From: a bacterium
GTDB taxonomy: Bacteria; Joyebacterota; Joyebacteria; Joyebacterales; Joyebacteraceae
NCBI GenBank assembly: GCA_025774245.1
Contig: JALGWI010000019.1
Span: 1 to 43,610, forward strand
DNA: 43,610 nucleotides
Reading direction: 5' to 3'
Part shown: piece by piece, positions 10,622 to 23,394 of the stretch
Numbering within the stretch: position 1 is the stretch's first letter
Layout of the letters: every line of letters begins with the position of its first letter
Translations under genes and position numbers: made by a program
Notes under the pieces: model-generated
What the model was told of the DNA's origin: nothing
Database searches by the model: none
Seen by the model: only the letters and a program-made list of their open reading frames with translations

Positions 10622-13066
10622 TCATTCGGTGGGAGCGTCCAGTTCGCGCAGCAACGACTCGATCGCGGCGACCCTTTCCCCACCCAGCGCGAGGTGCCGC
10701 CGGTAGTGGTGAACCGCCAAGTTTGGGTTTCCTACGTGAAACTGGTACGTGAGGGCGAGATTCAGGTGCGCGGGAGCGAAATCCGGATCGATTCGGATTT
10801 CCGCTTCGTACTCCCGGATCGCTTCATCGTGATGGTTGATCTCACTCAGGAGGACACCCATCACGAAGTGTCCGTGCTCGAGGGCCGGATCGAGGCGGAG
10901 CGCCCGCGTCATCAGATCGATCGCCTCCTCCAGGAGCCCCATGTCACGCTTCAGAAGGGCCAGGCGGCGAAAGGGCTCTCCCGCCTCGGGCGCGAGATCG
11001 ATCGCCTCCTCGAAGACGTCGACGGCCTCCACGGCTCTCCCTGCGCGCGCCAGCGAGTCGGCCCTGGCCATCGCCCGCACGGCGGCCGCAGGCACCGCAC
11101 GTCGCTCCGGCCGCTCGATAAGACCCAGATAGAACTCGATCTCGGGCTTCTCCCGCCCGTCGTCCCAGCGGAGCGCTTCCGCGAAGGCCGACCTGGCCTC
11201 GTCCGGGCGCCCCGTGCGATAGAGCACGACGCCGCGCTCACGGAGCGCCATCGCGTTTCGCGGGTCGTACGCGATGACGCTGTCGAGCTGAGCCATCGCC
11301 GCATCGTAGTCTCCTCGTCGCTCGTGGGAGAGCGCCAGGTTCACCCGGGCCGCCGAGTAGCCGGGATCCAACCGGATTGCTGTCCGGAAGGCCTCGATCG
11401 CCTGCTCGTTCTCCCCTGCTTCGGAGAGAAGGGCGCCGAGGTTCAGGTAGCTCTTCGGGTAGCTCGGATCGATCGCAATCGATGTCCGGTACTCCTCGAT
11501 CGCCCGCTCGCTCAGGCCGCGATCACCGTAGATGATGCCGAGCCTGTAGTGCGGCTGGGCGAACCCCCTCTCCCGGTCGATCCCGTAGAAGTTGGCGTTG
11601 ACGACGAAGAGAAGGGCGAGGAGGACGAGGCCGGGAACGACGAGGCGCTTCCACTCGCGATCGCGCAGCCACCCGTAGGACTCGACGAGGGCGTACGAAG
11701 CCCCAATGGCGAGCGCGGGAACGGCCGGCAGGCGATAGCGGGCGAGCACGAAGAAGGCGACGACGGACAGGACGTAGACGCCGAAGAAGAGCGTCAGGAG
11801 CCTCGACCTCCTTCGGCGGAACGAGAGGCCGAGCCCGATGAGCCCGAGAGGAGCGATGATCGCGAACCCCGGGAGCGGGAACGAGAGGAGGCGGGAGTAG
11901 CGGCTCTGGAAGTAGTAGTTCTCGAGCTGCGGCAGCTCGTACGAGGTCATCGCGAACGAGAGCTTCCGGAGCGTGAGACCCAGCCAGCGCCCCGGGTTCT
12001 CCCGGATGAAACGGCCGGCGCGTCCGTACCAGTAGGACGAGACCTCCGACGGCTTGAGATCCCTGCCGAGAGCTTCCTCGGCGATTCTCTCTCCGTCCGC
12101 GTCCTCGACGATGTCGAGCCCCTCAGGGCGGACGTAGCTCCCCGACGCGATCTCGCTGTTCCCGATGTAGAAGTTGAGGCCGCCGTTCGATGTGACGATC
12201 ACGAAGTCGCGAGCGACAACGTAGTTCCTGACGGTGACGGGCACGATGACGACGAGCACGCCCAGGAGAACGAGCGCGGCGGCCCGCGCACCCGCGCGGA
12301 CCCGACCGGTCGATCGTCCCGCCCCGTTCTTCTTCGGGTGTGTCTTCGGGACCATCTTCGGGCGCTTCCCGTCAGCCGGTTTCCCGCCCGCTCGCCCCTC
12401 GCGGGATCCGTCCTGCGCCCCCATCCCGCTCCCGAGCCAGACCCAGGCGAGCGCGACGGGTATGAAGGCGAGAACGGCCGCCCTCCCAACCGTCGCGAAT
12501 CCGAGCGACAGGCCGGCCAGGGCGTACGCGACGGGCTTCCCCGTGATGTCGGCCCTGACCAGCAGGAAGAGCGACAGCAGATTGAGGAGGACCAGGAGCG
12601 GGGTCAGCAGTATCGAGCCGTCGTAGAAGATGAGTGCGCCGTAGGTCGCCGTCACGAGGCCGGCGAGGATGCCCACTCGCCTGTCGAACACGTCCGTTCC
12701 CAGGTAGTACACGAGCACGGCGGAGAGCGACCCGAGCCCCGCCTGAATCAGCCGCACCAGCAGGAGGTCGCGTCCGAACAGGCGATAGATCGTCGCGAGG
12801 AAGTAGGGATAGAGAGGCGTCATGAAGTACGCCTCGCCGGGCGCGCGCCCCTCGGCGATCTCGCGGGCCCAGCGGTCGTAGTACTTGGCGTCGAGGCCGA
12901 GGGTCTGGAAGAACGGCGTGTAGCGGACCTGCAGGACGTAGACGAGCCTGAGGACGAAGGCGAGCGCGAAGATGACGCAGGGCCAGAACCAGGGGGACTC
13001 GACGACCCTGCGAGCTACCGAGGGCTCCGCCTTCGTCTGTGTGGTGGTCGCGCTCCTCTTCGCCAT
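10622..13066 (-). CDS. GT-C family membrane glycosyltransferase fused to C-terminal TPR repeats
   Basis: This 814-residue integral membrane protein has about 10-12 hydrophobic helices between residues 22 and 485. The first periplasmic loop contains GLDAKYYDRWA and MTPLYPYFLA, typical of the ArnT/PMT-like GT-C fold (PF13231-type), where the acidic residue of the first loop is catalytic and the donor is a polyprenyl-linked sugar. Residues about 500-805 hold seven or eight TPR units (SYLNLGALLSEAGENEQAIE, ARVNLALSHERRGDYDAAMA and others), which would place a protein-binding scaffold on one face of the membrane. A strongly basic, glycine-rich insertion (about residues 213-255) interrupts the membrane part. 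ATG 13066 is chosen because AGGGGAGAC precedes it and it falls 28 bases after the stop of the upstream AlkP gene. It is the last gene of the long operon. The sugar and acceptor are unknown. Confidence 0.8.
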   Translation of the reverse strand: MAKRSATTTQTKAEPSVARRVVESPWFWPCVIFALAFVLRLVYVLQVRYTPFFQTLGLDAKYYDRWAREIAEGRAPGEAYFMTPLYPYFLATIYRLFGRDLLLVRLIQAGLGSLSAVLVYYLGTDVFDRRVGILAGLVTATYGALIFYDGSILLTPLLVLLNLLSLFLLVRADITGKPVAYALAGLSLGFATVGRAAVLAFIPVALAWVWLGSGMGAQDGSREGRAGGKPADGKRPKMVPKTHPKKNGAGRSTGRVRAGARAAALVLLGVLVVIVPVTVRNYVVARDFVIVTSNGGLNFYIGNSEIASGSYVRPEGLDIVEDADGERIAEEALGRDLKPSEVSSYWYGRAGRFIRENPGRWLGLTLRKLSFAMTSYELPQLENYYFQSRYSRLLSFPLPGFAIIAPLGLIGLGLSFRRRRSRLLTLFFGVYVLSVVAFFVLARYRLPAVPALAIGASYALVESYGWLRDREWKRLVVPGLVLLALLFVVNANFYGIDRERGFAQPHYRLGIIYGDRGLSERAIEEYRTSIAIDPSYPKSYLNLGALLSEAGENEQAIEAFRTAIRLDPGYSAARVNLALSHERRGDYDAAMAQLDSVIAYDPRNAMALRERGVVLYRTGRPDEARSAFAEALRWDDGREKPEIEFYLGLIERPERRAVPAAAVRAMARADSLARAGRAVEAVDVFEEAIDLAPEAGEPFRRLALLKRDMGLLEEAIDLMTRALRLDPALEHGHFVMGVLLSEINHHDEAIREYEAEIRIDPDFAPAHLNLALTYQFHVGNPNLAVHHYRRHLALGGERVAAIESLLRELDAPTE

Positions 13067-13094
13067 GTCTCCCCTGCCGGAGCGCCCCGTCAAG

Positions 13095-14447
13095 CTAGCT
13101 GATGTAGCCGAGGGATCGGAGCTGCTCCTTGATCTCCTCATCGACGGGAGAGGGAATCGGTTCAGGCTCCTCGGTCGGCTCGCCCGTCTCGTAGGTGTCG
13201 ATCGTGGTCACGGGGCGCGTCTCGAGGAAGTCCGGCTCCATCACGTTCGTGAGCGGGCGCCCGTCCATGTCGTCCGCGACGGGAAGCCCCATGAGCGCCA
13301 GGAGCGTCGGGCCGATGTCGAGCACGCTCGCGCCCGTGATCTCGACGCCCTTCCGGATGCCGGGACCCCGAACGAAGAGGACGCCATCTTCCCGGTGCAT
13401 GTCGGTCCCGACGGCGACGTCTCCCTCGAACCCCGGATAGCCCCGGTGTCCGGCGAAGCCGTGGTCGGAGCAGACCACGACGATGGTGTTCTCGCCAACG
13501 AGGTCGAGGACCTCGCCCAGCATCTCGTCCGTCTTCACGTAGTACCGCTCGATCACCGGCGCGAACGTCTCCACGGGCTCGGGTGCCAGATCCCAGCCCC
13601 AGCTCTCGGGCTCCATGTGTCTCCAGTACACGTGGCACACAAGGTCGAGACCGCGGAAGTAGACGGCCGTGAGGTCGGTCGGGCTCGTCTCGGTCATGTG
13701 GCGGAGCGTCGCGAGGGCGGAGAGATCCCCGGCGCGGATACGCCTGAGCTCCGCAAGAAGCGACCGCACCTCCGCGTTGTCGAGGTGGCTGGTGGTGCCG
13801 AGGTAGGACTCGATCTCGGACTCCGGGACGTCGCCCCCGGCAGCCCGGAGTTCCAGCAGCTCAGGGAGGAGCGTCGACGGATGAACGGCGTCCAGGAGGC
13901 GATCGAGCGAGCGCGTGATGTCGTCCGTGCGGTCGTCCCAGCTGAGCAGGCGACGGAGGCGGTTCGAGATGATGTATCCGTTGACGGGCTCGGCGGGCCA
14001 CGTCACGAGCCAGCCGATGACGCCGACGCTCATGTCGCGCTCGGTGAGGATCTGCCAGAACGCCTTGACTCGCCTCATGTTGCTGCTGGTCGGGGTCGCC
14101 TCGCGGGTCCTGCCCCTGTCGACCAGGAAGCCCTGGATGCCGTGCTTCTCCTCCGTCTTCCCCGTGGCCATGCTGGTCCAGATGCTCGGCGAGATGTAGG
14201 GAGGAATCGAACGAAGCATGCCCGACGTGCCTTCGCGGCGGAGCTGCTCCAGGGTGGGCAGACGCCCCTCCTCGATCATGTCCGCGACGCGTCCCCAGTC
14301 GAGGCCGTCGATGCCGACGACGAGGACACTCGGCATCCGTCGCTCCGCGAGCTCGTCGGCCCGGGTCTTCCTCGTGACCACGTAGGTGACGAGCGTCACC
14401 GCGACGGCGGCGGCAATGACTGCGGCCACGACGACCCTGGCTTTCAT
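13095..14447 (-). CDS. AlkP-superfamily phosphodiesterase-like protein, membrane anchored (array member 6)
   Basis: 450 residues with a single N-terminal anchor helix (residues 4-24; no lipobox). The fold is type I phosphodiesterase/nucleotide pyrophosphatase (PF01663, COG3379-like). Metal-site and nucleophile residues are all present: Asp47 in VVGIDG, Thr in PSIWTSMATG, Asp and His in RGLDLVCHVYW, Asp-His in CSDHGF, and a last His in DMHREDGV. KHGI follows the nucleophile loop. The C-terminus is PSPVDEEIKEQLRSLGYIS, shared with three sister proteins. GGAGGAG precedes ATG 14447. The protein probably works on the periplasmic side; the substrate is unknown, and hydrolase or phosphotransferase activity are both possible in this superfamily. 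A hairpin at 14469-14504 separates it from the gene upstream. Confidence 0.83.
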   Translation of the reverse strand: MKARVVVAAVIAAAVAVTLVTYVVTRKTRADELAERRMPSVLVVGIDGLDWGRVADMIEEGRLPTLEQLRREGTSGMLRSIPPYISPSIWTSMATGKTEEKHGIQGFLVDRGRTREATPTSSNMRRVKAFWQILTERDMSVGVIGWLVTWPAEPVNGYIISNRLRRLLSWDDRTDDITRSLDRLLDAVHPSTLLPELLELRAAGGDVPESEIESYLGTTSHLDNAEVRSLLAELRRIRAGDLSALATLRHMTETSPTDLTAVYFRGLDLVCHVYWRHMEPESWGWDLAPEPVETFAPVIERYYVKTDEMLGEVLDLVGENTIVVVCSDHGFAGHRGYPGFEGDVAVGTDMHREDGVLFVRGPGIRKGVEITGASVLDIGPTLLALMGLPVADDMDGRPLTNVMEPDFLETRPVTTIDTYETGEPTEEPEPIPSPVDEEIKEQLRSLGYIS

Positions 14448-14468
14448 GTCTCCTCCGAAGTGGTCGGG

Positions 14469-14504
14469 CGGGGCGCGCCTCGTGGAGAGGCGACGCTCGC
14501 CCCG
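14469..14504 (-). other. Intercistronic hairpin within the AlkP array
   Basis: CGGGGCGCGCCTC (14469-14481) pairs with GAGGCG (14487-14492) and CGCCCCG (14498-14504) with a five-base bulge. No T-tract follows, so it is more likely an mRNA processing or stability element than a terminator. Confidence 0.4.
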
Positions 14505-14539
14505 CACGCGGCGAGCGCGAGCCGCCGATGCGCGGAGCG

Positions 14540-15775
14540 CTACCTCGTGAGCATCTCGCGCCGCGGCGTTCCCTCGGTCGTGTCCGGAATCGGAATCGAC
14601 GCCGCCTGCATGATGGTCGGCGCCACGTCGAAGAGCGCCGCCTCCTCGACCCGAGCGCCGGCGACGACGCGCGGGCCGCTGAGGATCCAGAATCCCCTCT
14701 CGCTGTGCATCTCGAGACCGATCTTCGGCCTGCCGGCGCTGTCGAACTCGATGCCGACGTACCCGTGATTGGCGATGACGGCCACGGTACCGTTCTCTCC
14801 GACCGACGCTGTCAGCTCACCGACAAGCTCGTCGATGAACTCGTAGTAGCGGTCGATGGTCTCGTCCAGCGCGTCGCTGAGCTTGTCGAGGTGTTCGCGC
14901 TCCGGACCATCCGAGGGGAGGTTCCGCATCGCCTCCGGATCCATGTAGTGCCAGAAACGCTGGCTCACCTCGTCCACGCCGCCGAGGTAGACGAGGACGT
15001 TCGCGATCCCGAGCTCGCCTGCCGCGTAGAGGGCGGCGCTCACCATCGAGCGATCCCCTCCCACGGCGGTCTGGAGCGCGATGTAGTTCTGCCCGGACAG
15101 CGCCTCCAGCCCGAGGTCGCTCTCGAGATCGACGAAGCGGGAGAGGTCGCGACGCTTGATGCTCTCCATGTCGACGATGAGGGCGTCGAACTCGCTCGCG
15201 AGGTGCAGCGGATAGCACGCCCTCTCCCGCGTCTCCTCGTGATGCCGGTCGAGGACGTACTGCGTGTACCCGCCCACCATCGCGCCGTCCACTTCCTCCA
15301 CCGGCCACGTGCCGGGCCACCCCATCACGGCGACCGGCGTGCCCGCGTTCGAGAGCACGGTCCAGATCGTGTCGACGGTGCGAAACCGCGGTTTGAGCGG
15401 GGTCTTCACCATGTCGCCCCGCTTCGACTCGTGACGGCCACCGATGCCCTGGTTCTCCGGCGTCACCCCGGTCACGAGTGAGGTCCAGACGATCCGTCCG
15501 TCGACGCTCTTCCCGAGCGTCGGGAACCCGCCGACTGCCCCCTCGGTCATGAGCCGCGCGAGGTTCGGCATCCTGCCCTCTGCCACGAGGCGCTCGACGA
15601 TCGATTGCTCGAGGCCCTCGATTCCCACGATCAGGAGCGAGACGGAGCCGGGTGCGACGTCTCCCGCCACCGGTGCCGGCGCCTCCTGGCGACGGGAGAT
15701 CTTCGGCACGAGGACGAAGAGCCCCGCCGCGAGAACTACGATGATCAGCACAATCAGGATTCTCTCGGTCTTCAC
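14540..15775 (-). CDS. Degenerate AlkP-superfamily protein, likely pseudoenzyme (array member 5)
   Basis: 411 residues with an N-terminal anchor helix and the same fold and order of motifs as its neighbours, but three expected metal ligands are changed. The first aspartate of GIDG is Glu53 (GIEG), the His of DxxxH is Gln272 (VDEVSQRFW), and the Asp of SDHG is Asn336 (IANHGY). The conserved HGI after the nucleophile loop is QGI. The nucleophile Thr (VWTSLVTG) and last His (EMHSERGF) remain. It also lacks the LRSLGYI tail and ends EMLTR. The frame is intact with no stop or frameshift, so it is kept as a protein and not called a pseudogene. It is closest to the next upstream member (shared LGL..L.GQN). 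A GTG at 15775 is preferred over ATG 15781 because GGAGGA abuts that ATG, which is too close. Confidence 0.8.
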   Translation of the reverse strand: MKTERILIVLIIVVLAAGLFVLVPKISRRQEAPAPVAGDVAPGSVSLLIVGIEGLEQSIVERLVAEGRMPNLARLMTEGAVGGFPTLGKSVDGRIVWTSLVTGVTPENQGIGGRHESKRGDMVKTPLKPRFRTVDTIWTVLSNAGTPVAVMGWPGTWPVEEVDGAMVGGYTQYVLDRHHEETRERACYPLHLASEFDALIVDMESIKRRDLSRFVDLESDLGLEALSGQNYIALQTAVGGDRSMVSAALYAAGELGIANVLVYLGGVDEVSQRFWHYMDPEAMRNLPSDGPEREHLDKLSDALDETIDRYYEFIDELVGELTASVGENGTVAVIANHGYVGIEFDSAGRPKIGLEMHSERGFWILSGPRVVAGARVEEAALFDVAPTIMQAASIPIPDTTEGTPRREMLTR

Positions 15776-15804: not shown

Positions 15805-17163
15805 CTACTCTATGTAACCGAGCGAGCGGAGCTGCTCGCGTACCTCGTCGTCGACGGGCGATTCGATGGGCTCGTCGCCGTCGCCGCCGTGAGGTCCGGC
15901 GCCGTGCGTCTCCACGTAACGGACTCGGTGCGAGCGAGCGAAGCTCGTCGTGAAAGCCTCCTCGAGAACGCGGCCGGGCATGTCCTTGGCCACGGCCGAT
16001 CCGGCCATCGTCAGGAGCGTCGGCGCGATGTCGTAGACGGTCGCGCCCTGAAGCTCGACGCCGCGCGCGATCCCCGGACCGGCCAGGATCGCGACGCCGT
16101 CGAGCGAGTGCTGCCCGATGCCCATGTGCGGCCTCCCCTCCCCCCAGACTCCGGGACCCCGGAACCCGTGGTCGGAGCAGACGAGGACCGTCGCGTCCTC
16201 GGGGAAGATCTCCAGAATCCGCCCGACGTTCGCGTCGGCGTAGCGGTAGTACTCGCGCACGAGATCGACGAGGGCCTCGGTCTGTCTGGAGAGAAGAACC
16301 GTCGCGGGCTTCGACAGGTCGACGGGCGGACGCGTCTCCGGGTCCATGTACACCCAGAAGCGGTGGCTCACCTCGTCGACCCCGCGGATGTAGACGCACG
16401 AGAGGTCGGGCATCTCATCCGCCAGAAGCGAGAGGGCGACGGTCACTGCCGTCTCGTCTCCGGAGAACGCCCGTCTCAGGGCCTCCTCGTTCTGCCCCTC
16501 GAGGCTCCGGAGGCCGAGCTCGCTCTCCATGTTCACGAATCCGGCCATCTCCTCCGCGGTCACGCTGCCGGACTCGCGCACGAGGGGGGCGATGCGCTCC
16601 GCCAGTCCCGCGGGGAACGTGACGCTCCCGCCGGCCTCCTCGCCGGTGAACCCGGAGAGCCGCTGAACGTACTGCGAGACCATGAAGCCGTTCACTTCCC
16701 AGGCCGGCCACGTCACGAGCCAGCCGATGATCCCGACCTCGCGTCCTGCCCCTCCGATCACGTCCCAGAAGGCGCTCGCGCGCCACATGTTGCTGGAGAA
16801 CGGCGTGTTGTGGAACTCCGCGGCGGCCCCCTTCTCCTTCACGAAGCCCGAGATCCCGTGTTCCTCGGGCGGCTTCCCCGTCGCGATCGTGGTCCAGATC
16901 ACCGGCGACCCCTGACGCGGATCGAGCGATCGCAGAGGCCCGGACGCTCCTCGCTCGATCAGGCTCGCGAGGTTCGGAAGCTCGCCGCGCTCGAGCATCG
17001 GCCGGATGACGCTCCACTCGGCGCCGTCGATCCCGAGGACGACGATCGGTCCGTCCTCCGCGGCCGGAGGAGACGCCGACTGGCAACCCCCGACAACGAG
17101 AAGGACCGTCGCCAGGAGAAGCGTGGCAGCGATGGAAGCCTTGACGTGTCTAGTCCGTGCCAT
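15805..17163 (-). CDS. AlkP-superfamily phosphodiesterase-like lipoprotein (array member 4)
   Basis: 452 residues with a lipoprotein signal (LLVVGGC, lipidated Cys27), so it is predicted to be anchored in a membrane facing the periplasm. The AlkP/PF01663 motifs are complete: Asp46 in LGIDG, Thr in PVIWTTIATG, EEHGI, RGVDEVSHRFW, CSDHGF and GQHSLDGV. The C-terminus is ESPVDDEVREQLRSLGYIE. A flexible Gly/His/Asp linker (GAGPHGGDGDEP) precedes that tail. GGAGGACAC lies before ATG 17163. The stop is about 29 bases before the start of the degenerate paralogue, which it resembles most, suggesting a local duplication followed by loss of the active site in that copy. Substrate unknown. Confidence 0.84.
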   Translation of the reverse strand: MARTRHVKASIAATLLLATVLLVVGGCQSASPPAAEDGPIVVLGIDGAEWSVIRPMLERGELPNLASLIERGASGPLRSLDPRQGSPVIWTTIATGKPPEEHGISGFVKEKGAAAEFHNTPFSSNMWRASAFWDVIGGAGREVGIIGWLVTWPAWEVNGFMVSQYVQRLSGFTGEEAGGSVTFPAGLAERIAPLVRESGSVTAEEMAGFVNMESELGLRSLEGQNEEALRRAFSGDETAVTVALSLLADEMPDLSCVYIRGVDEVSHRFWVYMDPETRPPVDLSKPATVLLSRQTEALVDLVREYYRYADANVGRILEIFPEDATVLVCSDHGFRGPGVWGEGRPHMGIGQHSLDGVAILAGPGIARGVELQGATVYDIAPTLLTMAGSAVAKDMPGRVLEEAFTTSFARSHRVRYVETHGAGPHGGDGDEPIESPVDDEVREQLRSLGYIE

Positions 17164-17220: not shown

Positions 17221-17280
17221 GCTCGGTGTCGGTGTGTCCTGCTCGACGGCCGCGTGTCCCGCTCGACGGCCGCGTATCCT
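17221..17280. repeat. Three tandem 20-base repeats between array members 3 and 4
   Basis: Three adjacent 20-base units lie in the gap between two AlkP genes and end at the stop codon of the upstream one. The second (17241-17260) and third (17261-17280) share GCTCGACGGCCGCGT exactly; the first (17221-17240) is diverged but keeps GCTCG and GTGTCCT. It looks like slippage or a degenerate minisatellite. Confidence 0.6.
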
Positions 17281-18589
17281 ACTCGATGTAACCGAGCGAC
17301 CTCAGACGCTCGCGAACCTCGTCGTCGACCGGCGACTCGATCGGCTCCTCGTCGACTCCTTCGCGCTCGGCGTCCTCGTACGTCTCGACGGTGCCGACTG
17401 GGTGCGCGCGCAGGAAGGAGGGATCGATCGCCTCCGTGAGCACCTTCCCGTCCATGTCCTCGGCGACCGGAAGCCCGAGGAGCGCCAGGATCGTCGGCGT
17501 GATGTCGAGGACGCTGACGTCCCCGAGCTCGCGCGCAGCGACTACGTCCTTCCCCGCGATGACGAAGACGCCGGTCGGGTCGTGCATCGGAATGCCCCAC
17601 ACGTATCTCTCGCCCCGGAGCTTCGGCCCCGAGTGGCCGTGGTCAGACGTGACGATCACCGTCGTGTTCTCGTCCGCGAGCTCGAGAAGCTCGCCGAGCA
17701 CGGAGTCCATGTACTCGTAGTACCTGGGAATGACCTCGCCGAAGAGCGCCGCGTCCTCTGCCGTCGTTCCGGGGCCCGTGCCGGGGAGCATGTCGACCCA
17801 GTAGAGGTGCGAGGGTCCGTCGACGGCCCTGAAATAGACGGCGAAGAAGTCGACCGGCATCACGCGCGCCATCTCGAACGCGACCGCCCGGGCCGTCTCG
17901 TCGGTGGCGATGAAGTCCTTGAGCCCGTCGAACTTCGTCCGTCGCTCGCCCTTCGCCGGAACCTCGCCCGTCACGAACGTGGCCGCCCGCTCGTCGGGAA
18001 CGTCGCCCTTCGTGACCCGGAGGCGATCGAGGTCGTCCGCGAGCCCGTCGGGGAAGGTGATCGCGCGCCCTCCTGCGTGCAGATCGTGCCGTTCGTAGTT
18101 GAAGTAGCTCGTGACGAGGTAGCCGTTCACAGGCTCCGCCGGCCAGGTAGCGAGCCACGCGATCACACCGACGACGAGGCCCCGCTCGCCCAGTATGTTC
18201 CAGATCGTCTTCACGCGCCGGACGTTCGCCGTCACCGGCGTGGGCTCGTGCCGCCCACTCACGTTCTTCACGAACCCCGTGATGCCGTGCTTCCCGGGGA
18301 GCTTCCCCGTGGCGACGCTCGTCCAGATGACCGGCGACTCCAGAACGTCGAGCGACCTGATCTCGCCCCAGCAGCCCTCCTGCATGAGCGCCTCGAAGTT
18401 GGGAAGGCGGCCGTCCTCGAGCAGGGGTCCCATGACGTCCCACTCCATGCCGTCGATCCCGATCAGCATGATCCTGCGCTCGATCGGTTCGGGCGCGGTC
18501 TCGGTCGTCGCGCACGAGACGACGAAGACGAGCGTCGCCGCCAGGCACGCTGCTACGATGGTAGGCAGAAGTCGCTTTCCGACCGTCAC
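17279..18589 (-). CDS. AlkP-superfamily phosphodiesterase-like lipoprotein (array member 3)
   Basis: 436 residues with a lipoprotein signal (FVVSC, Cys26). Active-site motifs are complete: Asp46 in LIGIDG, Thr in PVIWTSVATG, GKHGI, RAVDGPSHLYW, TSDHGH and PMHDPTGV. The tail is ESPVDDEVRERLRSLGYIE. The start is the GTG at 18589: it overlaps the TGA of the upstream gene as GTGA (18586-18589) and has GGAGG six bases before it, so translation is probably coupled. The middle region (EVPAKGERRTKFDG) differs from the other members, as expected if each paralogue recognises a different substrate. Function is inferred only at the superfamily level. Confidence 0.84.
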   Translation of the reverse strand: MTVGKRLLPTIVAACLAATLVFVVSCATTETAPEPIERRIMLIGIDGMEWDVMGPLLEDGRLPNFEALMQEGCWGEIRSLDVLESPVIWTSVATGKLPGKHGITGFVKNVSGRHEPTPVTANVRRVKTIWNILGERGLVVGVIAWLATWPAEPVNGYLVTSYFNYERHDLHAGGRAITFPDGLADDLDRLRVTKGDVPDERAATFVTGEVPAKGERRTKFDGLKDFIATDETARAVAFEMARVMPVDFFAVYFRAVDGPSHLYWVDMLPGTGPGTTAEDAALFGEVIPRYYEYMDSVLGELLELADENTTVIVTSDHGHSGPKLRGERYVWGIPMHDPTGVFVIAGKDVVAARELGDVSVLDITPTILALLGLPVAEDMDGKVLTEAIDPSFLRAHPVGTVETYEDAEREGVDEEPIESPVDDEVRERLRSLGYIE

Positions 18590-19857
18590 TCCGTCCTCCT
18601 GTCCATGCGCTCGTACGAGGGGATGTTCCTCGCCCCGTGCCGCGCGAGGTAGCCCGGCTCGAACGCCTCCTCGAACACCTCTCCGTCCATGTCGTTGGCC
18701 ACGGGGAGACCGTAGAGCGCCAGGATCGTCGGCGTCACGTCTCGCACGTTCGCCTCGCCGACCTCGACGCCGCTCCGGAAGCCGTCCCCGGCCGCGATCA
18801 GAACGCCGACCGGGCCGTGCTCGTTGATGCCGCCCGGCTTCTTGCCGGGCTTCGGTCCCTCGAAGCCGTGGTCGGAACACACGATCACGGTCGCGCCGTC
18901 CCCGTACGCCTCCACGAGCTCACCGAGCATCTCGTCGGCGTACTCGTAGTAGAGGTCGACGGTCTCGCCGAAGACCCGCGCGTCGGTGTGAGAGATGGGA
19001 ATGCCGACCTCGCCGCGGTGCGCCGCGGCCCAGAACTTGTGGCAGACCGAATCCACGCCGCGAAGGTACACGATGCAGACGTCGGTCGGATGCTCCCGAA
19101 TGAGGTGTTTCGCCACCCGAAGGAACGTGCGGTCGCCGGCGTGGAAGTCCCGGAGGGGCGCGATCGTGCGCTCGAGCGCGTCGATCGCCCGCATCTCGAC
19201 GAAGAGCTCGTCCATCGGAAGCTCCCGCGCCTCATCCCTGGTCAGCGCCGCGTCGGGTGAGACGAACCTGGCGATCTCCTCGTCGGTGAGCATGTCCGAA
19301 GTGATGCGGAGCGGCTCGATCTCCGTCAGGAGCTCCTCGGGGTAGGTCAGGTCCTCGGGCAGTTCCCTGCCCGGCTTCTGGCCGAAACGGAAATAGTCGG
19401 TGACCATGTAGCCGTTCACCGCCTCGGCGGGCCAGCTCACGAGCCAGCCGATCACGGTGACGGTCTTCCCCTCCTCGCCGAGGATGTCCCAGAACGTTCG
19501 CGCGGTCCGCACGTTGCTCGTCAGGATCTTCTTCGACGTCGGGTCGATGTAGTCCGAGATGCCGTGCTTCTCGGGGTTCTTCCCCGTCGCGATGGTGGTC
19601 CAGATGACGGGCGACTTCTGCTTGGGCTCGAGGGAACGGAGCCCGCACGAGACGCCGGAGTCGATGAGCCGCTGGAGATTCGGCATCCGCCCCTCCTCGA
19701 GGAGCGGGCGGATCACGGCCCACTCGGCCGCGTCGATGCCGACCATGAGGAGCCTGCGGTCCGCCGGATCTCCGCCGCCGCATCCGGCGAGAGCCGCCAC
19801 GAGGATCGTGGTCGTTACGGCGGCCACGAGGCCGATCGCGAGCAGTCTTCGTGTCAT
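18586..19857 (-). CDS. AlkP-superfamily phosphodiesterase-like lipoprotein without C-terminal tail (array member 2)
   Basis: 423 residues with a lipoprotein signal (AALAGC, Cys26). Motifs: Asp42 in VGIDAAEW (Ala replaces the usual Gly after the Asp), Thr in PVIWTTIATG, EKHGI, RGVDSVCHKFW, CSDHGF and NEHGPVGV. It ends SYERMDRRTE, lacking the SPVDxE...LRSLGYI tail of four other members. The missing tail is not in another frame downstream, because the next gene starts at the stop codon. ATG 19857 has AGAGGA upstream. All metal ligands are present, so the protein is probably active. Periplasmic, membrane anchored; substrate unknown. Confidence 0.83.
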   Translation of the reverse strand: MTRRLLAIGLVAAVTTTILVAALAGCGGGDPADRRLLMVGIDAAEWAVIRPLLEEGRMPNLQRLIDSGVSCGLRSLEPKQKSPVIWTTIATGKNPEKHGISDYIDPTSKKILTSNVRTARTFWDILGEEGKTVTVIGWLVSWPAEAVNGYMVTDYFRFGQKPGRELPEDLTYPEELLTEIEPLRITSDMLTDEEIARFVSPDAALTRDEARELPMDELFVEMRAIDALERTIAPLRDFHAGDRTFLRVAKHLIREHPTDVCIVYLRGVDSVCHKFWAAAHRGEVGIPISHTDARVFGETVDLYYEYADEMLGELVEAYGDGATVIVCSDHGFEGPKPGKKPGGINEHGPVGVLIAAGDGFRSGVEVGEANVRDVTPTILALYGLPVANDMDGEVFEEAFEPGYLARHGARNIPSYERMDRRTE

Positions 19858-19934
19858 GCCGATTCCTCTTCGACGGCGACGCCCCCGCGTGCGAGAGCGC
19901 CGCTTGTGCGCCCGGCCGAGAACGGCCGGCACCC

Positions 19935-19968
19935 GAAGCGCGCGGCACATCCTTCGGGAGCGCGCTTC
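19935..19968 (-). other. Intercistronic hairpin between array members 1 and 2
   Basis: GAAGCGCGC (19935-19943) pairs perfectly with GCGCGCTTC (19960-19968) around a 16-base loop, immediately past the stop codon of array member 1. No T-tract follows. It may mark an RNA processing point inside the long operon. Confidence 0.4.
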
Positions 19969-19969
19969 C

Positions 19970-21307
19970 TTACTCGATGTAGCCCAAGGACCTCAGTCGC
20001 TCCTTGATCTCCTCGTCCACCGGCGAGATCACCGGCTCGTCCGTGTCGGGCTCGGTCCGCTCCGCCTCGTACGTGTCGACGAAGCTCACCGGGTTCCGCT
20101 CGAGGAAGCTCTCGTCGACGACGTCCGTGAGAACGTAGCCGTCCATGTCCCTGCCCACCGACTCACCGAAGAGGGCCAGGATTGTCGGGGTGATGTCCAT
20201 GACGCTCGCCTCGCTGCCCTCCCGCGGGCCGCCGATCCCCGGCCCCGCTGCGGCGATCACGCCGACGGGCCTGTGCATCCAGGTCCCGAGCTTGAGGCCG
20301 TCCTTCGAGCGGAACGGCCCCCGGAAACCGTGGTCGGAGCACACGATGACCGTCGCGTCGTCGCCGAAGCCGTCGGCGAACTCGCCGATCAGCTCGTCGA
20401 TCCGCTCGTAGTACCGCGGGATGAGATCGGAGAAGGTCTCGATGAACTCGTCGCTCTGGAAGAGATCGACCGTCGACGGGTCCATCTGCGCCCAGTAGCG
20501 ATGGCAGCAGATGTCGAGGCCGTTGATGTAGACCGCGAGGAAGTCGAGTTCCTCACCGGATTCGAGGAGGTGGTTCGTGATCGCGCGGACCGATTCGTCG
20601 ACCGTGTAGATCTCACGGAAGCCCTGCGCGCCGCCCTGCAGGGTCAGGTTGTCGGTCGCCCTCCACGCGTCGCCGTTCAGGTAGTACGCGATGTCGTCGT
20701 CGCTCGTCTCGTCGACCGTCCGCACGAAGGGCGCGAGCTCAGTCCTGAGCTCCTCCGGGTACGTGACGTGCTCCATGCTCTCGAAGTACTCCTCCCGCGC
20801 GTACCCGATCCTGTCGCTCACCCAGTAGCCGTTCGTCGGAAGCGCCGGCCAGCCGACCATCCAGTTGATGACGCCGACCCTGTGGCCCTTCTCCCCCAGG
20901 ATGTCCCAGATCGAGCGCGCCTTCCATCGGAGCGAGCTGAAGAGCGGCTGCCCCGGCATGTCCTCGAGGAAGTTACTGATGCCGTGCTTGTGCGGCGCCT
21001 TGCCGGTCGCGATGGTCGTCCAGATGATCGGCGACTTCATCCGGGGCTCCAGCGAGCGGAGGTCCCTTCTGACTCCATCTTCGATGATCCGCGCGAGGTT
21101 CGGGAGCTTCCCTTGAGCGAGGAGGGGATCCGCGACCCGCCAGTCCATCCCGTCGATGCCGATGAGTATGACACGGCGCCCGGACGCGCTCTCGCGCCCG
21201 CACCCCGCCAGGGCTGCCACGAGCGCAGCAAGGATGAGAACCGCGACGATCGTCGCGCCTACCACTCGAGTTGTCGGTCTTCCGTTCTTCCCGCGCGCGG
21301 TCGCCAT
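19970..21307 (-). CDS. AlkP-superfamily phosphodiesterase-like lipoprotein (array member 1)
   Basis: 445 residues with a positively charged N-terminus and a lipoprotein signal (AALAGC, Cys36). Motifs are complete: Asp52 in LIGIDG, Thr in PIIWTTIATG, HKHGI, NGLDICCHRYW, CSDHGF and WMHRPVGV. The tail is ISPVDEEIKERLRSLGYIE. The start ATG at 21307 shares its A with the TGA of glyS (TGATG), so this first array member is translationally tied to a housekeeping tRNA synthetase gene. It is in the COG3379-like AlkP family; hydrolysis or transfer of a phospho group on an envelope molecule is the likely chemistry, but this is inference. Confidence 0.85.
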   Translation of the reverse strand: MATARGKNGRPTTRVVGATIVAVLILAALVAALAGCGRESASGRRVILIGIDGMDWRVADPLLAQGKLPNLARIIEDGVRRDLRSLEPRMKSPIIWTTIATGKAPHKHGISNFLEDMPGQPLFSSLRWKARSIWDILGEKGHRVGVINWMVGWPALPTNGYWVSDRIGYAREEYFESMEHVTYPEELRTELAPFVRTVDETSDDDIAYYLNGDAWRATDNLTLQGGAQGFREIYTVDESVRAITNHLLESGEELDFLAVYINGLDICCHRYWAQMDPSTVDLFQSDEFIETFSDLIPRYYERIDELIGEFADGFGDDATVIVCSDHGFRGPFRSKDGLKLGTWMHRPVGVIAAAGPGIGGPREGSEASVMDITPTILALFGESVGRDMDGYVLTDVVDESFLERNPVSFVDTYEAERTEPDTDEPVISPVDEEIKERLRSLGYIE

Positions 21308-23394
21308 CAAGCGTCCTCCGTCTCCTCTCCTTCGAGCACGACCGTCGAGAAGTCGGCGATGCGAAGGAAGAGAGCTTTCACCTTCGCGAGAAGCCCCAGC
21401 CTCGACTGCTTGAGGCTCTCGTCGTCCACCATGACCATGACGTCGTCGAAGAACGTGTCGATCGGCTTCCGCAGGTTCAGAAGCTCGCGAACCGCGCGAT
21501 CGAAATCGCCGGCGGCGATCGCCTCTTCGACGAGACGCTCCGCCTCGACGCTCGCAGCGTCGAGAGCCTTCGACGAGGGCTCCACCAGGGCGCCGCCGTC
21601 GTGCGCAGGGTCGCCCTGTCCCTTGAGGATGTTCATCACGCGGCGCGCGCCGATGACGAGGCCTGCGAAGTCCTCCGACGCGCGGAAGTGCGTGAGCGCT
21701 TCGATCCTCGGCCGCACGCCGACCAGGTTGTCGAACGAGGCCTCGAGGACCGCATCGACGAGGTCGTAGGAGTAGCCCGCGTCGATGTAGAAGTTCCTCG
21801 CGCGCTGCCTGACGAAGCCGAGCACGTCCGAGACGATCTCGGACGACGGAGCGTCCCCTTCGGAGAAGCCCCGCGCCGCCTCGCGGGCGAGGTCGCCGAT
21901 CGAGACGGGGAGTCCCTTCTCGTCGATCGTCCGCACGAGACCGATGGCCTGCCGCCTCAGGGCGTACGGATCCTGGGACCCCGTCGGCACGAGCCCGGCC
22001 GAGAAACAGCCGACGATCGAGTCGATGCGGTCCACCATGCTCAAGATGATCCCCGCAGCGCTCTCAGGCAAGTCGTCCCCCGCAAACCGCGGCAGGTAGT
22101 GCTCGTAGATGGCCGTCGCCACGCCCTCGGGCTCCCCCGAGACCGTCGCATATTCCCGGCCCATGATCCCCTGGAGCTCGGTGAACTCCTTCCCGTCCCT
22201 GACCATCTCGGTCACGAGATCGGCCTTCGCCAGCCTCGCCGCCCTCTCGGCGGTGGCGGTCTCGTCCGAGCCCAGCTGCTCGCCGACGATCCGCGCGAGC
22301 CGCTCAAGGCGTTCGGTCTTCTCGTAGAGCGAGCCCAGGCCTTCGAGCCAGACGACGTTCCGAAGGGCCTCGACCTTGCTCTCGAACGGCGACTTCGTGT
22401 CTTCCTTCCAGTAGAACTCGGCGTCGGCGAGCCGCGACTCGAGCACGCGCTCGTTGCCGCGCCGGACGGCGTCCACGAAGTCCTGCGGACCGTTCATCAC
22501 GCAGAGGAAGAAGGGAAGGAGCCCGTGGCCGTCCGTCTCGACCGCGAAGTAGCGCTGGTGCCCCCTCATCGCTGCGACGACGACGTCCTTCGGAAGGGCG
22601 ATGAAGCGCTCGTCGAACCGTCCGGTGAAGACCGTGGGGAACTCCACGAGGAACGTGACCTCGTCGAGCAGGCCCTCATCGGGAATGACGGTCCCGCCGC
22701 ACCCGACGGCCTCGCGATCGATCCCCTCCTCGATTGCCCGCCTGCGCGCCGCGACGTCCGCGACGACGTAGGCGTCCTCGAGCACGCGGAGGTAGTCGTC
22801 GGGGCACGCGATCGCGTGCGGGCCGGACGACCAGAATCTGAGTCCGCGCGTCTCGCGGCCGGCGGAGACGCCGGCGTACTCGAAGTCGAGGACGTCTTCT
22901 CCGAAGAGGGCCACGATCCAGCGGATCGGCCTTCCGAAACGCGCCTCGCCTCCCCAGCGCATCGTCTTCGGGAACGTGATCGCCGCCACGGCGGCGCCGA
23001 GGCAGTCCGCGAGCACCTCGACCGCCGGCCTCCCCTCGTCGGTCACCTCGACGCGGACGTAGTCGTCCTTGACCTCGAGCGCCTCGACCGCCACGCCCTG
23101 GGACTTCGCGAAGCCGATGGCCGCCCTGGTCGGGCTGCCGTCCTCCCCGAACGCGACCTTCGCGGGCGGACCCTTGACCGCGCGGACGCGCGTCTCCTGG
23201 CTCTCGGCTACGCCCGAGCAGAAGATCGCGATTCGTCTGGGGGTCGCGTAGGTCCTGACGGTTCCCACGTCGAACGAGAGGCGCGCCTCGCCAAGCTGTC
23301 GCTCGAGCGCCGCGCGAAGATCCTCGACGGCCGGAGGAACGTACGACGCCGGCAGCTCTTCAACGCCGATCTCTAGGAAGAGGTCTCTCACCAT
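21307..23394 (-). CDS. glyS: Glycyl-tRNA synthetase beta subunit
   Basis: 695 residues, the normal size for the bacterial beta chain, which carries tRNA-binding HD-like and C-terminal DALR-type anticodon domains. The start LFLEIGVEELPASYVPPA and the internal KTMRWG, FGRPIRWIVALFG and RAIALVR-like (RRQAIGLVRTI) blocks are diagnostic. It pairs with the alpha subunit encoded just upstream to form the alpha2-beta2 enzyme that charges tRNA-Gly in the cytoplasm. ATG 23394 overlaps the alpha-subunit stop by one base (TGATG), and its own stop overlaps the first AlkP gene the same way. The reading frame is open further upstream, but that part belongs to the glyQ region. Confidence 0.96.
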   Translation of the reverse strand: MVRDLFLEIGVEELPASYVPPAVEDLRAALERQLGEARLSFDVGTVRTYATPRRIAIFCSGVAESQETRVRAVKGPPAKVAFGEDGSPTRAAIGFAKSQGVAVEALEVKDDYVRVEVTDEGRPAVEVLADCLGAAVAAITFPKTMRWGGEARFGRPIRWIVALFGEDVLDFEYAGVSAGRETRGLRFWSSGPHAIACPDDYLRVLEDAYVVADVAARRRAIEEGIDREAVGCGGTVIPDEGLLDEVTFLVEFPTVFTGRFDERFIALPKDVVVAAMRGHQRYFAVETDGHGLLPFFLCVMNGPQDFVDAVRRGNERVLESRLADAEFYWKEDTKSPFESKVEALRNVVWLEGLGSLYEKTERLERLARIVGEQLGSDETATAERAARLAKADLVTEMVRDGKEFTELQGIMGREYATVSGEPEGVATAIYEHYLPRFAGDDLPESAAGIILSMVDRIDSIVGCFSAGLVPTGSQDPYALRRQAIGLVRTIDEKGLPVSIGDLAREAARGFSEGDAPSSEIVSDVLGFVRQRARNFYIDAGYSYDLVDAVLEASFDNLVGVRPRIEALTHFRASEDFAGLVIGARRVMNILKGQGDPAHDGGALVEPSSKALDAASVEAERLVEEAIAAGDFDRAVRELLNLRKPIDTFFDDVMVMVDDESLKQSRLGLLAKVKALFLRIADFSTVVLEGEETEDA

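Follow-up and report, generated by a model that had tools for sequence, protein, structure and literature searches.

The window that we analysed, a stretch of DNA of 43,610 nucleotides, carries an array of six PF01663 proteins, M1 to M6, on its minus strand, and the fifth of them raises the question of whether a protein that has lost catalytic residues has been kept for a task other than catalysis. M1 (19970..21310), which overlaps the end of glyS by 4 bases, M2 (18586..19950), M3 (17279..18652), M4 (15805..17163), and M6 (13095..14507) are intact members, and M6 lies 32 bases downstream of M5 (14540..15775). The earlier note had reported Glu53 (GIEG), the change of HGI to QGI, Gln272 (VDEVSQ), and Asn336 (ANHG) in M5 at places where the five sisters have Asp, His, His, and Asp, and all of these residues were present. 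Between positions 13095 and 21310 of the window, lipoprotein-like Cys motifs occurred in M1 to M4 (lipobox-like in M3 and M4) and a plain N-terminal hydrophobic anchor in M5 and M6. The array is followed, wherever contigs reach, by a gene for a PMT_2-type glycosyltransferase with C-terminal TPR repeats (10622..13141, minus strand). Upstream of the array (window:25251-30627) are genes for YbeY, two CNNM/CorC-type proteins, DUF502, MgtE, and RecO, and then glyQ-glyS; several divalent-cation transport genes are located near a metalloenzyme array. The C-terminal LRSLGYI tail was present in four members of the array (M1, M3, M4, and M6), and it was frequent in relatives belonging to a different phylum as well. 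Its absence from M5, which had been listed as a peculiarity of this protein, was real, but M2 lacked the tail in every genome although it kept all catalytic residues, and tail loss was ruled out as a sign of inactivity.

The M5 gene is an open frame, as claimed previously, of 411 amino acids, starting at GTG with GGAGG 7 bases 5' of the start codon and an in-frame ATG 6 bases further upstream. Its product matched the PF01663 profile with 64.8 bits (E=1.4e-17), above the gathering cut-off of 23. The AlphaFold2 model had a pLDDT of 88.9. A PDB search using M5 as a single sequence gave no match; by profile search, the top PDB matches were all NPP/ENPP structures with a probability of 1.00, and the best fold match was Xanthomonas NPP (Xac NPP; E about 5e-12, 15% identity). 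TM-scores against NPP structures were just 0.4–0.5, and those of the intact M4 were similar. From the model and the profile matches, we are confident that M5 has a predicted AlkP/NPP fold. Residues 2–22 (15710..15772, minus strand) form a hydrophobic anchor without a lipobox, which coincides with a predicted helix; the protein would be oriented N-in, with its domain in the periplasm tethered to the inner membrane by this helix. Taken together, the open frame, profile match, model, and orthologues describe M5 as a membrane-anchored pseudo-phosphodiesterase of the PF01663 fold, and annotation pipelines would label it a phosphodiesterase, probably wrongly.

The earlier note had proposed an alignment with characterised NPP enzymes. 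In the profile alignment with Xac NPP (2gsn), Glu53 fell on a ligand Asp, and a further loss was found: residue 93 of M5, a Gly (codon 15497..15499, minus strand), was aligned with the nucleophile Thr. The nucleophile of the AlkP superfamily lies at the sheet-proximal end of a helix, with constant spacing to a TG that follows, and the distance of 9 residues is shared by NPP, PhnA, and sulfatases, as judged from aligned sequences and from what is generally known of these families. Position 93 or its equivalent was 9 residues from the T of TG in all six members of the window, and because this distance is constant, the assignment is independent of gap placement. In M5 the predicted helix began at residue 93, and in M4 it began at Ser86. 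A catalytic NPP/AlkP enzyme requires Ser or Thr at this helix N-terminus, and neither occurred in any of the 20 M5 orthologues, which had Pro (nine), Ala (five), Gln (two), Gly, Leu, Val, or Met. The intact sisters had Ser in 77 of 77 rows, and the relatives from outside the phylum (n=36) had Ser in 34 cases and Thr in two. Within the M5 clade, column 93 varied freely, with an entropy at the 82nd percentile. On these alignments, loss of the nucleophile, which the earlier note had overlooked, is the strongest evidence for a pseudoenzyme and more decisive than the ligand changes. Thr98 was considered as the nucleophile and rejected, since in NPP, PhnA, and sulfatases the nucleophile precedes the T of TG by 9 residues and corresponds to the Ser of SPxIWT in the sisters.

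The metal ligands were altered to different degrees. Eight catalytic positions were essentially invariant across the intact sisters (about 77 rows), so the substitutions at the matching positions of M5 are not due to chance, and homologues from outside the phylum kept the D/D/H/D/H set where aligned. At position 53, an Asp of metal site 2 (codon 15617..15619, minus strand), the sisters had Asp in 76 of 76 rows and M5 had Glu in 14, Gln in six, and Lys in one of 21 rows, one gene split over two contigs being counted twice among the 20 genomes; Gln occurred in all six g4 genomes, Lys in G009, and Asp in no row. The site-1 His at position 272 (codon 14960..14962, minus strand) was Gln in 20/20 orthologues and His in 77/77 sisters. 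The other site-1 ligand, at position 268, was Asp in 15 orthologues, Asn in three, and Glu in two. The codon for Asn336 (14768..14770, minus strand) occupies an Asp position of metal site 2 at which 18 orthologues had Asp, one had Glu, and only that of the window had Asn; this change is private to the species of the window, where a single base in a single assembly supports it. Of the three ligand losses claimed before, those at 53 and 272 therefore hold across the orthologue group, and that at 336 does not. The two-metal set of D, H, H and D, D, H was thus broken in M5 at positions 53 and 272 and in the window also at 336.

Other residues of the pocket were retained or newly fixed. Gln109 (NQGI; codon 15449..15451, minus strand) was present in 19/20 orthologues at a place where the sisters have His; Gln272-Arg-Phe-Trp and His337-Gly-Tyr were invariant in the clade (272, 337, 339), and Gln109, His357, and Ser358 nearly so, position 337 being His in 20/20 and position 357 His in 19 and Tyr in one. 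Since column 93 varies and yet 272, 337, and 339 are fixed, the pattern suggests that the chemistry was released in M5 while the pocket remained constrained and was rebuilt for a non-catalytic task. Asp336, His337, His357, and often Asp268 are still present in most orthologues, so weak binding of a single metal would be possible. M5 would separate residues needed for the chemistry (93 and 53) from those serving the retained function (109, 272, 337, and 339).

An M5 orthologue was found in all 20 genomes examined from the phylum, with 44–56% identity to M5 of the window and an open frame without stop codons in each; the relatives bearing names were Candidatus Eisenbacteria MAGs. Wherever contigs allowed, the gene order was glyQ-glyS-M1-M2-M3-(M4)-M5-M6-TPR-glycosyltransferase. 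In a tree with the catalytic columns left out, the six members each formed one clade, with a value of 99 for M5; the tree was built by a quick method, and its supports are indicative. The M5 clade predates the last common ancestor of the phylum. No M5-like dead homologue was found outside the phylum, where none of 36 relatives preferred the M5 profile. Neither Asp53 nor His272 was restored in any of the 20 genomes, in agreement with the earlier proposal of a pseudoenzyme under selection.

Purifying selection on the M5 gene was seen in the ratio of nonsynonymous to synonymous changes, which agreed with the same proposal. In close pairs, omega of M5 was 0.16–0.33, with a highest upper limit of 0.47 (NG86, codon bootstrap), well below 1, and that of the sisters by the same method was 0.10–0.26. 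In wider within-genus sets, the median omega of M5 reached at most about 1.9 times the value for same-genus sisters. In GC-rich genes with biased codon use, NG86 estimates of dS tend to be too low, so the values for M5 are if anything overestimates. M5 is under purifying selection, somewhat weaker than that on its sisters, and is not decaying. The alternative that M5 is decaying or is an artefact of assembly would fit with its being the fastest-evolving member of the array, although the difference is small (45% vs 47–56% median identity across genera), and with the Asn336 change confined to the genome of the window. This explanation is already contradicted by the orthologues, whose key changes are common to all and whose frames have stayed open in 20/20 genomes at such divergence with omega well below 1, and we regard it as extremely improbable.

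M5 might instead be a changed enzyme, either a single-metal AlkP of the LtaS/EptA/MCR kind using Glu53, Asp336, and His337, or one with a displaced nucleophile at Thr98 or Ser99, both invariant in M5. The site of LtaS and EptA is made up of Glu, Thr, Asp, and His (PMC7576196), and the M5 clade has Glu53 in 14/21 rows, Asp336 in 18/20, and His337 in 20/20. The Thr nucleophile is, however, kept in LtaS, EptA, and MCR, and M5 has Gly, Pro, Ala, or others there; position 53 is Gln in the six g4 genomes and Lys in G009, and the species of the window has Asn336. Thr98 comes 5 residues later in the helix; the sisters have Thr or Ala at this position, and because Ala occurs there in many outside relatives with an intact catalytic set, its conservation looks structural. 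A changed enzyme is therefore unlikely. The earlier note had proposed that M5 regulates the neighbouring M4, its closest paralogue. M4 adjoins M5 where present and was its best BLAST match among the paralogues (about 31–37% identity), but the tree resolved no sister group of M5. M4 was missing in 10/20 genomes, M6 in three (G010, G013, and G017), and M3 in G008, and M5 was kept in all of them. Regulation of M4 is contradicted as a general role, and we consider it very unlikely as the specific function of M5.

With its residue losses, open frame, orthology, synteny, and purifying selection, M5 is a homologue that lacks conserved catalytic residues and is retained under selection, as a pseudoenzyme is defined. 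M5 is very probably a genuine phylum-wide pseudoenzyme of the NPP type, kept as a binding, sensor, or scaffold protein, and together with its orthologues it makes up a pseudoenzyme family that is new and well defined. An ancestor of M5, older than the last common ancestor of the phylum, would have lost the nucleophilic Ser and the site-1 His and had its site-2 Asp replaced. The protein would then bind no catalytic metal pair and form no covalent phospho-intermediate, and would act through the retained fold and the rebuilt pocket (Gln109, Gln272-Arg-Phe-Trp, His337-Gly-Tyr, and His357-Ser). Its partner may be the enzymes of the array as a set, or the neighbouring TPR-glycosyltransferase, rather than M4 alone. 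We tentatively suggest, as one possible role, that M5 works in the periplasm, without metal, as a sensor or scaffold: its old active-site pocket, remodelled with fixed Gln109, Gln272, and Tyr339, would bind the phospho-ligand on which the sister enzymes act, and M5 would tune both the array and the TPR-glycosyltransferase next to it.

Most enzyme families have known pseudoenzymes. The case of M5 is unusually clean, an AlkP/NPP pseudoenzyme conserved throughout a bacterial candidate phylum, in one array with five paralogues that are intact, several of which are less consistently kept. Our literature search found nothing relevant on pseudoenzymes in the alkaline phosphatase superfamily and nothing on an Eisenbacteria phosphodiesterase. 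Xac NPP (PDB 2gsn, 7n1s, and 7mw8) and the ENPPs share the fold, the PF01663 family, and the motif order of M5; unlike them, M5 lacks the nucleophile, site-1 His, and site-2 Asp that define the di-zinc centre. The N-terminal half of PhnA phosphonoacetate hydrolase (PDB 1ei6 and 3szy) aligned with the profile of the sisters (E=3e-10), but PhnA is an active di-zinc enzyme, and M5 scored far under the TIGR02335 cut-off (33 vs 408 bits). By analogy, the best functional precedent appears to be YejM, also known as PbgA or LapC, which like M5 is a membrane-anchored periplasmic AlkP fold with an active site described as incomplete. YejM has been described as an AlkP-fold inner-membrane protein without properly placed catalytic residues that modulates LapB/FtsH (PMC7773988), and another study reported a phosphatase activity that depends on Mg, together with conservation of Thr302 (PMC7576196). 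Because a protein called non-catalytic was later reported as a Mg-dependent phosphatase, activity is not safely judged from sequence alone. YejM acts with the TPR protein LapB, and the M5 array adjoins a gene for a TPR protein, a link of gene neighbourhood alone. YejM is part of the LtaS/arylsulfatase branch, with five TM helices and its nucleophile Thr302 retained, whereas M5 is of the NPP type by its PF01663 match, has a single N-terminal helix and no nucleophile, and falls outside the YejM family. If M5 is a sensor or scaffold, a YejM-like control circuit would have evolved independently in the NPP branch. The AdoMetDC prozyme of Trypanosoma, a catalytically dead paralogue that activates its partner in a complex (PMC5201418), is like M5 an inactive paralogue kept beside active copies.

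Array members turned over while M5 remained single-copy: G007 had two M4 copies and an M2 moved to another contig (L059:7985-10710 (-) and L123:888-2252 (+)), and G009 had two M6 copies (L061:6393-9361 (-)). A fragment of M3 at a contig end in G017 (L070:2-409 (+)) had TSDNGH for TSDHGH, which may be real or an assembly error. Outside the array, a distant AlkP homologue in G007 (C114, L124:718-2163 (-)) apparently lacked several catalytic residues and, in a loose alignment, had Pro where the nucleophile would stand. In G003, the M1 orthologue (L055:14164-16422 (-)) was a second, independent degenerate member with an open frame, in which the nucleophile Ser was changed to Val, Asp268 to Leu, and SDHG to SSVG, and the LRSLGYI tail was missing.
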